Assembly (NCBI GenBank): GCA_938088195.1
Contig: CALKEO010000015.1
Span: 1 to 47,634 of the forward strand
Length of the DNA stretch: 47,634 bases
Reading direction: 5' to 3'
DNA from: an uncultured Flavobacteriaceae bacterium
GTDB lineage: Bacteria; Bacteroidota; Bacteroidia; Flavobacteriales; Flavobacteriaceae
The notes under the pieces are model-generated. The model ran no database searches and was not told where the DNA came from. It was given only the letters and a program-made list of their open reading frames with translations. The translations under genes and the position numbers were made by a program. Shown one piece after another: positions 28,256-31,722 of the stretch. Each line of letters starts with the position of its first letter. The stretch's first letter is position 1.

Positions 28256-29650
28256 TTAAAATCCTATCAAATAAAGTTTGCTTTCTGCTCGTGTTACTGC
28301 AGTGTATAACCACCTTAGATAATCTATATTTGGTCCTTCTTTCAAAAAAGGTTTTTCTATAAACACTATAGGCCATTGGCCTCCTTGAGCTTTATGACAT
28401 GTTATAGCATATGAAAACTTAACATGAAGCGCATTAAAAAAAGGATTTTCTTTAGTTTTTATAAACCTTTTATATTTAGATTTTATATGTAAATAATCCT
28501 TTTGAATTTCTTGGTATAAAAGATTGGATTGATCATATGATAAAGATGGTAATTCAGAATCTAATGTATTTAAAATGATAGTTGTATCAAAAGAGGGTTG
28601 GCTTGCGTAATCAACCATTCTAATTTTTATTTCAGCAAATTCAAATCCATATAACTCTCTAATTCTGTATATTTCTAAGACTTCAATTATATCTCCATTT
28701 GCCAAAAAAGAAATATTTGGATCAGAATCGGACCAAAAATAATTATTCTTAGTTATCATTAACAGATCACCAATACAAACTTTATGATCATGAGATAAAA
28801 TTGTTTTTCTTATCTGTTGATTATATTGATTAGCTCTTTTATTTGAACGAACAATTATTATAGAATTATCCCTTCCATTTTCATTAAAACTATTTTCAAT
28901 TGATTCTTGAATTTCAAAACCATCAGAAAGAAAATGGATATCGTTAAATTTTTTAAATTTAAAATCTAAGTCTTCATTGATTATGTTATCTCTAATAACA
29001 GTCGCATTATAAAGTATTCCTGATTCTTCAGTTTGTCTAACTACATCACTAATTTCATATTGATCAATTTTAAGATTATAATTTTGCTCTAAGTATTCAG
29101 CATTCAGTGCTGGACTAATCGATTGATTTACCGGAGGCAATTGAGCGCTATCTCCAATAAAAATTAATTTAGAATTAGTTTTAAAATCAATAAATTCTAT
29201 AATATCACTTAATAAGGATTTTTTTTTAAAAAGGTCATTAGAATTTAATGATTCTGAAATCATCGAAGCTTCATCAACAATAAAAACAATATTTTTTAAT
29301 TTATTAGTTTTTAAGGTAGATTTGAAATTTCCTGAACTATCAACTTTTGAGTAATAAATTTTCTTGTGAACTGTGTAAGTTTTTCTTTGAGTATATTTAG
29401 ATAAAACTTTAGCAGCCCGACCTGTAGGAGCCAATAAACTATAACTCATTTTACTGTAATGTAAATTTTCAACTAAAGTTTTCATTAATGTAGTTTTACC
29501 TGTTCCTGCATATCCCCTCAATAAAAAAACAGTTGAATTATTTTTATTATATAAAAAATCCGTTAAACTTTTCAAAGCAGAAAATTGATCTTTAGTGGGA
29601 TTTAAAAGAAAATTTCTCAAAAGTAATTTATTAAATTCTGATGAATTCAT
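28256..29650 (-). CDS. RecD/Pif1-like ATP-dependent DNA helicase
   Basis: 464-residue single-chain SF1 helicase. The Walker A motif is GYAGTGKTT (46-54), motif II VDEASMIS near residue 120, and QLPPVNQS in motif III. The C-terminal part has TCHKAQGGQWPIVFIEKPF and YTAVTRAESKLYL, i.e. the UvrD_C_2-type motifs V and VI. This matches the flavobacterial AAA/RecD-like family that lacks RecBC partners. Likely a 5'-3' helicase in repair or recombination; polarity is inferred from family. First gene of the minus-strand set with kdsB. Confidence 0.88.
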   Translation of the reverse strand: MNSSEFNKLLLRNFLLNPTKDQFSALKSLTDFLYNKNNSTVFLLRGYAGTGKTTLMKTLVENLHYSKMSYSLLAPTGRAAKVLSKYTQRKTYTVHKKIYYSKVDSSGNFKSTLKTNKLKNIVFIVDEASMISESLNSNDLFKKKSLLSDIIEFIDFKTNSKLIFIGDSAQLPPVNQSISPALNAEYLEQNYNLKIDQYEISDVVRQTEESGILYNATVIRDNIINEDLDFKFKKFNDIHFLSDGFEIQESIENSFNENGRDNSIIIVRSNKRANQYNQQIRKTILSHDHKVCIGDLLMITKNNYFWSDSDPNISFLANGDIIEVLEIYRIRELYGFEFAEIKIRMVDYASQPSFDTTIILNTLDSELPSLSYDQSNLLYQEIQKDYLHIKSKYKRFIKTKENPFFNALHVKFSYAITCHKAQGGQWPIVFIEKPFLKEGPNIDYLRWLYTAVTRAESKLYLIGF

Positions 29651-29692
29651 ATGATTTTAAATTTTAAGTAAACCTATTATTAATACTTACTT

Positions 29693-29720
29693 TTGAGAAT
29701 AAAAAAAAATTGTAGTTTTG
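29693..29720 (+). promoter_or_regulatory. Candidate promoter of the hypothetical-DUF3822-rsmD operon
   Basis: A TTG (29693-29695, within TTTTG) is separated by 17 nt from TAGTTTTG (29713-29720), matching the Bacteroidota pattern TTG-N17-23-TAnnTTTG. The box ends 22 nt before the ATG at 29743. The best two-part promoter I found in the window. Confidence 0.6.
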
Positions 29721-29742: not shown

Positions 29743-30411
29743 ATGGAATTCATATCTAAATACATGAGAATTATTAAATCCGTTCTTTGGATTTTAATAA
29801 TTGTTTTTGCTTATAAAGTTTACGGTTCAATAAATGGTCCAATTGAATTTAATAAAGTTAAAAACGAAAGATACTTAAAAGTAATTGATAAACTAAAAGA
29901 CATAAGAAATGCTCAAATAGCTTACAAAAGCGTTAACGGTATTTACTCTGATAATTTTGATAGTTTAATTAGTTTTATTGATTCAGCACAATACACATTA
30001 ATTCAAAAAAGAGATTCAAGTTTTTTAGAATACGATAGAACTTTTAGAATTGATATGTTAAGAGAGGTCGTAGTAATAGATACCTTAGGATTTGCCTCTG
30101 TCAAAGATTCTTTATTTGGTAATTCCAATAGATATAAAAATATGGCAAGTATTCCTATAGATGGAGTTGATGAAACTTTCAAAATTAAATCTGATGTTAT
30201 TGACAAAAATGGATATAATGTTCCTGTCTTTGAGGTTAGAGTTTCTAAAGATGTCGTTTTGTTTGATCAAAATAAAGATTTATTAAAACAAGAAAAAGGC
30301 CTAATGTCTGTTGATGGCGTTAATGGTCCTGACATTGTTTTAGGATCACTAAGCGAGGTTAGCACCAATGGAAATTGGCCAACAACCTATGATGCAATTG
30401 CTAGAAACTAA
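29743..30411 (+). CDS. Unknown membrane-anchored protein, pseudopilin-like N-terminus
   Basis: 222 residues with no family I can name. One hydrophobic helix at about 12-28 (SVLWILIIVFAYKVYGS) is followed by an amphipathic charged helix and the segment DIRNAQIAYKSVNGIYSDNF, which resembles the aligned-helix-to-globular transition of type II secretion or type IV pilins. There is no prepilin-peptidase site (no G|FTLxE), so it would be membrane-anchored rather than processed. The rest (60-222) is a hydrophilic globular domain, extracytoplasmic if N-in. It leads an operon with the DUF3822 gene and rsmD. See the linked finding. Confidence 0.7.
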   Translation: MEFISKYMRIIKSVLWILIIVFAYKVYGSINGPIEFNKVKNERYLKVIDKLKDIRNAQIAYKSVNGIYSDNFDSLISFIDSAQYTLIQKRDSSFLEYDRTFRIDMLREVVVIDTLGFASVKDSLFGNSNRYKNMASIPIDGVDETFKIKSDVIDKNGYNVPVFEVRVSKDVVLFDQNKDLLKQEKGLMSVDGVNGPDIVLGSLSEVSTNGNWPTTYDAIARN

Positions 30412-31189
30412 AATAGAGCTTGGCAAAAACCTTTTAATAAAACTTGGTCATGATAGTGTATCATTGATTTTGTCCAAGCCTGATGGTACTTTAACAAACC
30501 ATTTCTACAAAGGGTTTTCAAAAAAAATTGAAACTCATTCACTCGTGAATAAATTAGATTCTGTTATTTCCGAATCTAATTTTACCAAACAAAGCATAAC
30601 AAATGTTAAATTAATTGTTTGTAATAGGATATCGTCAATAGTACCAGAAAATCTTTTTGAAGAGAAATTATGTTTAGAATATTTAAAATTTAATGCCAAA
30701 TTATTAAAAAATGATTTCGCTGCAAATGACAAAATTGAAGAAATTGGAGCAATCAATGTCTACATTCCCTTCGTAAATGTTAATAATTATTTAATAGAAA
30801 AATTTGGAGCATTTAATTACTACCACTATTCAACAATTTTAATCAAAAAATTAATAAAAATTGCAAATCATAAAAAGACATCATTTTTTGTTAATATTCA
30901 GTTAGATTCTATCCAAATCATATTATTTAAAAACAAAAAACTTCTATTGTACAATAATTTTGAAATAAAAGAGAAGGAAGACATTATCTATTTTTTACTA
31001 CTGTCTATAGAACAAAATAAAATTGATAATAATAAAACCAAAATTTCATTACACGGAATTATTAAAAAAGACACTTATTTATTACTAGAAAAATTTATTA
31101 ATAATATAGAAATTATTGATTTGTCTAAGAAAACAGCTAATACAACAGAGTTAAATAATTTAACAAAAATTGATTATTTGCTTATATGA
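30389..31189 (+). CDS. DUF3822 family protein (actin-like ATPase fold)
   Basis: About 266 residues of DUF3822, a Bacteroidota family whose solved member from Bacteroides is recalled to have an actin-like (ASKHA) fold. Two repeated half-domains are visible: an N-terminal strand-turn-strand LLIKLGHDSVSLILSKPDG, and a second copy from about residue 165 (FFVNIQLDSIQIILFKNKK) ending ISLHGII. The phosphate-loop aspartates and glycines of true ATPases look missing, so ATP turnover is doubtful. The start is uncertain: candidate ATGs at 30368, 30389 and 30392 all lie inside the end of the preceding gene, and I chose 30389. The last 4 bp overlap rsmD. Confidence 0.7.
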   Translation: MMQLLETKIELGKNLLIKLGHDSVSLILSKPDGTLTNHFYKGFSKKIETHSLVNKLDSVISESNFTKQSITNVKLIVCNRISSIVPENLFEEKLCLEYLKFNAKLLKNDFAANDKIEEIGAINVYIPFVNVNNYLIEKFGAFNYYHYSTILIKKLIKIANHKKTSFFVNIQLDSIQIILFKNKKLLLYNNFEIKEKEDIIYFLLLSIEQNKIDNNKTKISLHGIIKKDTYLLLEKFINNIEIIDLSKKTANTTELNNLTKIDYLLI

Positions 31190-31722
31190 GAATAATTTCT
31201 GGAATAAATAAAGGCAGAAAAATAAATGCACCCAAAAAACTACCAGTAAGACCTACTACCGATCAAGCAAAAGAAGCTTTATTTAATATTATAAGTAATA
31301 GTTATTTTTTTTCAGAATTATCAGTCCTAGATTTATTTACCGGCACTGGAAATATTAGCTATGAATTTGCGTCAAGAGGTTCAAAGAAAATCACGTGTGT
31401 AGATTCAAATAAAAGTTGCATAAAATTTGTTGAAAAAATTTCAAATGATCTTTCGTTAAATTTAAATATTATCAAATCAGATGTCTACACATATTTAAAA
31501 AAAAATAATGCAAATTATGATATAATATTTGCTGATCCGCCATACGATTTTGAATGCATCAATTATGAGAAAGTCATTCAGCTTATAATTGAAAATAGAA
31601 TAATAAATAATGGCGGTTTAATTATTCTTGAACATTCAAAAAATAAAATACTGAAAAACATTTTAAACTACTCAGAAACTAGAGAATATGGTGGATGTTG
31701 TTTTAGTTTTTTTAAAATTTAA
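31186..31722 (+). CDS. rsmD: 16S rRNA (guanine966-N2)-methyltransferase RsmD
   Basis: 178 residues. Methylates G966 of 16S rRNA in assembled 30S particles. The N-terminus MRIISGINKGRKINAPKKLP and RPTTDQAKEALFNI are RsmD hallmarks, with SAM motif I LDLFTGTGNISYEF near residue 45 and the catalytic FADPPYDF at about 112-119. It overlaps the preceding DUF3822 gene by ATGA, so translation is probably coupled. A 46-bp gap separates it from the convergent EEP gene; that gap is AT-rich and shows no firm terminator. Confidence 0.94.
   Translation: MRIISGINKGRKINAPKKLPVRPTTDQAKEALFNIISNSYFFSELSVLDLFTGTGNISYEFASRGSKKITCVDSNKSCIKFVEKISNDLSLNLNIIKSDVYTYLKKNNANYDIIFADPPYDFECINYEKVIQLIIENRIINNGGLIILEHSKNKILKNILNYSETREYGGCCFSFFKI

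Follow-up and report, generated by a model that had tools for sequence, protein, structure and literature searches.

A probable pilin relative and a PilM-related DUF3822 protein in the rsmD operon of Bacteroidota: a candidate filament-derived pair without a filament machine

In the rsmD operon of Bacteroidota, a membrane protein of a family without a name (here called X) is encoded immediately upstream of a DUF3822 protein (here called D) or its counterpart; the order of X, this second-slot gene, and rsmD is found phylum-wide, and both slots are conserved across Bacteroidota. We consider it probable that X and D represent a reduced offshoot of the type IV filament superfamily (pili and type II secretion) that has no machine and in which the pair would act as a strut or relay. 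The fuller picture, that of a phylum-wide module in which an uncleaved GspG-like protein and a PilM-like adaptor make up an anchored, probably glycosylated, nonpolymerizing strut or relay, a use of these parts not described so far, is offered as a tentative proposal that we judge somewhat less likely than not.

Locus organization and the X family

The window, that is, the whole stretch of DNA analyzed, comprises 47,634 nucleotides of contig CALKEO010000015.1 (assembly GCA_938088195.1) from an uncultured Flavobacteriaceae bacterium. The features that concern us are as follows.

28256 to 29650, reverse strand: RecD-like helicase gene, divergent; context outside the module, flanking X (or an X-less D) in many lineages
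29691 to 29720, forward strand: possible operon promoter of Bacteroidota type (TTTTG followed by TAGTTTTG), recognized by eye
29743 to 30411, forward strand: X, a 222-aa single-pass membrane protein of a family without a name (open reading frame, fold model, and profile comparison)
29767 to 29937, forward strand: transmembrane segment of X and its helical continuation (codons 9 to 65), one predicted helix with conserved P33
30079 to 30087, forward strand: D-T-L triplet (codons 113 to 115 of X) of the type that is O-glycosylated in Bacteroidota, found in 167 of 180 relatives
30106 to 30114, forward strand: D-S-L triplet of the same type (codons 122 to 124 of X), present in 147 of 180 relatives
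30343 to 30378, forward strand: C-terminal signature GS(L/M)...GNW of X (codons 201 to 212); G201 and W212 do not vary among 180 relatives
30389 to 31189, forward strand: D, the DUF3822 protein (PF12864) with a PilM-related actin fold; a start at 30389 or 30392 is likeliest, and one at 30368 is possible
31186 to 31722, forward strand: rsmD, a 16S rRNA methyltransferase gene (PF03602, 137 bits), third in the conserved order

The sequence-only reading of this DNA had described a 222-aa open reading frame overlapped by a DUF3822 frame in an rsmD operon, and both frames are indeed present on the forward strand (29743 to 30411 and 30368 to 31189); X, D, and rsmD overlap successively in one operon, the latter two by the four bases ATGA (31186 to 31189). 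D matches PF12864 with 161.2 bits (E 3e-47), against a curated cutoff of 24.9. Of 79 related loci, 77 have a D-frame ATG within the terminal part of X, mostly 14 to 23 nt before the end of the X stop codon, and in 46 of these the following ATG is too far downstream to serve as the start of D, which makes the X/D overlap a general one; most likely, judging from these sequences, D starts at 30389 or 30392, a position that fits the relatives better than does the ATG at 30368.

X alone found no match in Pfam, NCBIfam, or PDB sequence searches. A family-wide search recovered it from 144 of the 149 genomes of the window's family, and 99 of 247 genomes of the class carry it, so that the open reading frame is not a chance one. 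L75, G201, and W212 are invariant among 180 X proteins, with S202, D113, and T114 nearly so, and in the same genomes the mean column identity is 73% for X versus 33% for D. In small-genome marine lineages, D evolves very fast and the adjoining X is strongly conserved. No relatives were found in the viral contigs searched.

Similarity of X to pilins

X was modeled with AlphaFold2 from 56 relatives (mean pLDDT 80, pTM 0.69). The hydrophobic N-terminal helix and amphipathic continuation noted earlier are one predicted helix of 58 residues (8 to 65), followed by a second helix (72 to 81) and four principal strands, and the model is uncertain over the final 16 residues; the pilin hallmark of a long alpha1 helix lying against a beta-sheet is present in this predicted model. 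Foldseek returned nothing significant (best E 0.075), its top rows being chemoreceptor and CqsR sensor domains (E 0.07 to 0.8). In a second structural comparison (VIA, 996 chains), the first 14 ranks were occupied exclusively by type IV pilins and T2SS pseudopilins (Z 6.4 to 4.2), with PilA4 (Z 6.4) and GspG/EpsG (Z 6.0 and 5.8) as the best rows, and rank 15 was an unrelated response regulator (Z 3.0). Most of the pilin rows set residue n of the X model opposite residue n-11 of the mature pilin, which places P33, a proline in 156 of 180 X relatives, on the P22 of pilins.

Sequence profiles led to the same register. A pilin profile was assembled from seven Bacteroidota major pilins encoded beside GspF-type genes, together with nine plasmid-encoded proteins of environmental bacteria that are GspG or GspG-like, and residues 30 to 79 of X aligned with pilin residues 19 to 68 (offset 11) at a score of 30.3. 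None of 100 shuffles reached this value in either of two controls (11.7 +/- 1.9 for full shuffles and 16.1 +/- 0.9 when the post-membrane columns were shuffled), and a DUF3822 control profile scored 16.8. When only the Bacteroidota pilins were used, the score was 25.8, exceeded by 1 of 100 post-membrane shuffles, and the similarity to Bacteroidota minor pilins was weak (P 0.007 to 0.02). In the proposed comparison with GspG, X homologues of other classes matched it at an E value of 1.4e-5 and a probability of 80%; hhalign probabilities for X against pilins ranged from 14 to 80% across comparisons. Curated families gave less: the X of the window has no match to PF08334, PF07963, and similar pilin families, Pilin_GH was the commonest Pfam match over 48 X proteins but a weak one (5 of 48, best E 0.0059), and T2SSG was weakly matched by 2 of 17 distant X members (best E 0.013).

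Because the fold and the profile comparisons agree in one register, X is very likely pilin-like, as the pseudopilin-like pattern read from its sequence had implied. A competing explanation holds that X is no relative of pilins at all but a membrane helix joined to a small domain, either sensor-like (Cache/PAS-type) or of a new alpha+beta kind, whose likeness to pilins arose by convergence, with a PilM-like D serving some other purpose. The leading Foldseek rows are what this explanation would predict, and VIA Z scores below 8 would by themselves be no proof of pilin homology; the sensor rows, however, reach only Z 2.0 to 2.8 in the comparison that ranks pilins first, the sequence profiles independently choose pilins in the identical register, and the partner protein is related to PilM, so that we regard convergence as improbable.

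Over the phylum, PF08334 gave a single match, a solitary protein at another locus (L234:1243-1683; G457:C14, about 51.9 kb) that has two membrane helices at its N terminus and lacks a prepilin motif. This protein, from genus g127, in which most sampled species lack X, represents a second, unrelated uncleaved GspG-like domain in the phylum.

Relationship of D to PilM

The only PDB sequence match of D is 3hrg, which is BT_3980 of Bacteroides thetaiotaomicron and carries the description "actin-like ATPase fold." With an AF2 model of D (pLDDT 89), Foldseek placed 3hrg first, followed by PilM (E 4e-10) and FtsA, and VIA gave Z 26.0 for 3hrg (2.3 A over 241 residues), 14.9 for PilM-PilN, and 14.5 for FtsA, the last two being tied. 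D itself is not matched by PilM_2 (PF11104), but 4 of 17 proteins that occupy its slot in other classes are, at E values up to 0.1 (best 1.2e-9). Searched against the PDB, the profile of these 17 slot proteins returned four PilM sequences (2.7e-11, 1.6e-8, 1.9e-8, and 1.9e-4) and, besides PilM, nothing below 0.3, FtsA included. DUF3822 aligns with the slot-protein profile over 188 columns (E 1.7e-5), and the corresponding HMM recovers 63 of 152 DUF3822 proteins at E <1e-3. Matches to PF11104 over the phylum were mostly proteins of ~440 aa, which we took as FtsA from their length and matched range; they were set aside as evidence for PilM, and only three short ones beside X-like genes were followed.

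Given the fold of D together with the exclusively PilM matches of its slot counterparts in the PDB, we are confident that D is PilM related, PilM being the closest known relative of the second slot. The assignment of a PilM-like actin fold to DUF3822 stands on fold matches and, through the counterparts of other classes, on sequence as well. The degraded phosphate loops that went with it can be affirmed for the first loop, where the Asp is not conserved (position 25 is Q, L, H, K, Y, or S). No PilN neighbor is present at the X-D locus.

Distribution and linkage of X and D

D is present in 146 of 149 genomes of the window's family and in 220 of 247 genomes of the class. All family loci that were read have the order X, D, rsmD unless the contig ends; in all 52 class genomes for which the positions of both were listed, X and D are adjacent on the same strand; and in the loci read, X was met in this slot only. 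A broader X profile extended the search to other classes of Bacteroidota, yielding 20 loci in which a gene of ~300 codons follows X in nearly all and rsmD comes next in 19, often with coaD after it; the profiles of X from the class of the Flavobacteriaceae and from these other classes align at E 3e-21. The linkage of the pair, for which a survey of gene order had been suggested, is therefore phylum-wide. A role for X as part of the T9SS was considered and rejected, since clear X genes appear beside D in distant families of the class, and also in other classes, presumably irrespective of whether a T9SS is present.

The presence of X and that of D are strongly correlated, yet losses run both ways. 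In the large genus g127, all four sampled species have D without X, and X was missing from 13 species in a larger sample; within this genus, X seems to have been lost while D remains. One g127 species, G457, keeps X in the usual slot between the helicase gene and D (L290, G457:C2; cf. L053 and L181). At X-less loci, the helicase gene is often directly divergent from D, X being simply absent. Conversely, the sampled genomes of family f29 have no D, and rsmD directly follows X wherever rsmD was seen (L077, L189 to L191, L193, and L194); in other apparent absences (L186 to L188, L196, and L197), the slot is filled by a divergent D. It is in exactly this family, f29, that X has two further N-terminal membrane helices (L189 to L195). 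Co-occurrence, proposed earlier as a check on the pair, is a strong correlation with exceptions: a single family has X but no D, and numerous lineages have D but no X.

In covariation, D goes more with rsmD than with X. The partial correlations of distances were 0.17 for X and D given rsmD, 0.19 for X and rsmD given D, and 0.57 for D and rsmD given X, so that the pairwise distance matrices contain no covariation specific to X and D, in a test limited by saturated distances and shared phylogeny. These values, the loss of either gene without the other, and the very different rates of X and D would suit an account in which the two descend from one ancestral filament locus but are now independent, being held in place by the conserved rsmD/coaD operon and the overlap of the genes. 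We nevertheless judge that account unlikely, while giving it more weight than any other competitor: the adjacency persists phylum-wide although either gene can be lost singly, the two genes retained together are parts of unrelated function from one and the same superfamily, and X, whose losses have left D behind many times, was never met outside this slot in the loci read. The earlier suggestion that X and D work together remains plausible on the strength of the phylum-wide linkage and is weakened by the losses in both directions and by the lack of specific covariation; on balance, we hold the case for joint action and the case against it to be about equal.

Topology and glycosylation-type triplets of X

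In single-pass X proteins, the N-terminal tail is short and basic, and in multipass ones a short basic loop precedes the last membrane helix, an arrangement that suggests, from the sequences, a periplasmic location for the X domain; the net charge on the two sides of the membrane helix did not separate the sides. The O-glycosylation motif of Bacteroidota is given in PMC8550257 as D-S/T-A/I/L/V/M/T. Triplets of this type number 3.60 per X protein, compared with 0.47 for the reversed motif, whereas D has 0.76 versus 0.52 and RsmD has 0.20 versus 1.20; enrichment (~8-fold over the reversed motif) is thus confined to X, and in RsmD the triplets are rarer than their reverse. The enrichment fits a periplasmic, glycosylated X domain, but as similar triplets occur in the other classes, they could alternatively be structural.

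Filament machinery

Type IV pilins and pseudopilins have Gly or Ala at position -1 followed by a hydrophobic residue, Glu5 in the mature protein, and Pro22 in the first helix. X has no prepilin peptidase site, as had been seen in the window's protein alone: residue 11, equivalent to -1, is I, L, or V, and once S, in 52 relatives. Glu5 is likewise absent, residue 16 being W in 41, L in 7, I in 2, F in 1, and Y in 1 of the same 52.

Platform genes of type IV pili and type II secretion are missing from most of the Bacteroidota sampled. The genome from which the window comes (80% complete) has neither a GspF/PilC platform gene nor a prepilin peptidase gene; in its family these were found in 1 of 37 and 2 of 37 genomes, respectively, never together, and the single matches were all in draft MAGs. 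In the window's genus, some draft MAGs have a lone match to GspF or to prepilin peptidase (G530:C135, G514:C4, and G519:C72), never to both, possibly on contaminating contigs. A GspF-type platform gene was found in 27 of the 149 class genomes searched, and X occurs in 11 of these 27, about its overall rate, which indicates that X and D are not tied to the machine. Complete type IV filament (T2SS-like) loci, with prepilins, a platform, and GspL/PilN-like genes, exist in other families of the order (L235 and L236) and are unlinked to X and D.

These counts bear on whether X might still be a filament subunit, served by a machine that has gone unrecognized elsewhere in the genome and with D as its PilM. 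The pilin-like fold, the retained equivalent of Pro22, and the platform genes of those 27 class members are in keeping with such a role; the missing cleavage site and Glu5, the near absence of platform and peptidase from the family, and the indifference of X to the presence of a platform count so heavily against it that we think it highly improbable.

Discussion

Without cleavage, Glu5, or a platform, X would have no known route into a filament, and the simplest function left to the pair would be that of a fixed strut or a relay. We suggest that X is never cleaved and that its first helix would serve as a permanent anchor in the inner membrane, with the globular domain in the periplasm, while D would be cytoplasmic and, having no phosphate-loop Asp, would probably lack the usual nucleotide cycling. 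In PilM-PilN and FtsA-FtsN, the partner is a single-pass membrane protein whose short cytoplasmic tail is gripped by an actin-fold adaptor, and solved complexes of PilM-PilN and FtsA-FtsN type are among the structural matches of D. By analogy, D would bind the short cytoplasmic tail of X or its last cytoplasmic loop, and the pair would form a fixed strut or a signal relay across the inner membrane, with no filament. No PilN-type tail motif was recognized in X, and binding of D to the X tail, for which this analogy speaks, is a possibility that we entertain with considerable reserve. Gene order, conservation, the fold and profile resemblances, and the missing cleavage site, Glu5, and platform gene are observations; the periplasmic side, the binding of X to D, and the relay role are what we infer.

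Like GspG/EpsG (PF08334) and type IV pilins such as Thermus PilA4, X has a long N-terminal helix running from the membrane into a globular domain, a second helix, a beta-sheet, a proline equivalent to position 22, and a profile match through the helix. Unlike them, it has neither the G-1 cleavage site nor Glu5, sometimes has one or two extra membrane helices, bears the C-terminal GS...GNW signature, and occurs in most genomes without an assembly machine. D shares its actin-like fold with FtsA and with the PilM (PF11104) of type IVa pili, its nearest structural matches, and its counterparts in other classes match PilM sequences; it differs from PilM in being about 70 to 100 residues shorter, in lacking the phosphate-loop Asp, and in having a pilin-like neighbor rather than PilN.

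Type IV filament parts are known in the same phylum from the Cytophaga-type "T2SS" of Bacteroidetes, which, according to a survey of the filament superfamily (PMC6668835), branches with type IVa pili. That system has an ATPase, a platform, and pilins bearing an FTLxE cleavage motif at another locus (L235, L236, and L237 to L266); X and D lie outside it and occur without it, and no pair resembling X and D was met in the passages of the survey that were consulted. BT_3980 (3hrg) belongs to the same Pfam family as D and is annotated just as an actin-like ATPase fold of unknown function, with no partner X described. PMC8931616 describes BT_3979 as a putative methyltransferase, which fits rsmD, and BT_3981 would then be the X gene; nothing on BT_3981 was found in the open-access literature searched. 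Nor are DUF3822 and BT_3980 named anywhere in that literature, which for DUF3822 comprised 5.39 million papers, an earlier description elsewhere being possible, and the X-D pair appears to be undescribed, in agreement with the sequence-only reading.

If our interpretation is correct, a piece of the filament superfamily that nearly every genome of the window's family carries (144 of 149) has been hidden behind DUF3822 and an unnamed neighbor; DUF3822 would gain a family and a partner, and BT_3980 would become a testable protein. One could then also ask what purpose a pilin fold serves, together with a PilM-type adaptor, where there is nothing to polymerize, and the finding would bear on the evolutionary history of filament machines, whether of their assembly or of their dismantling.
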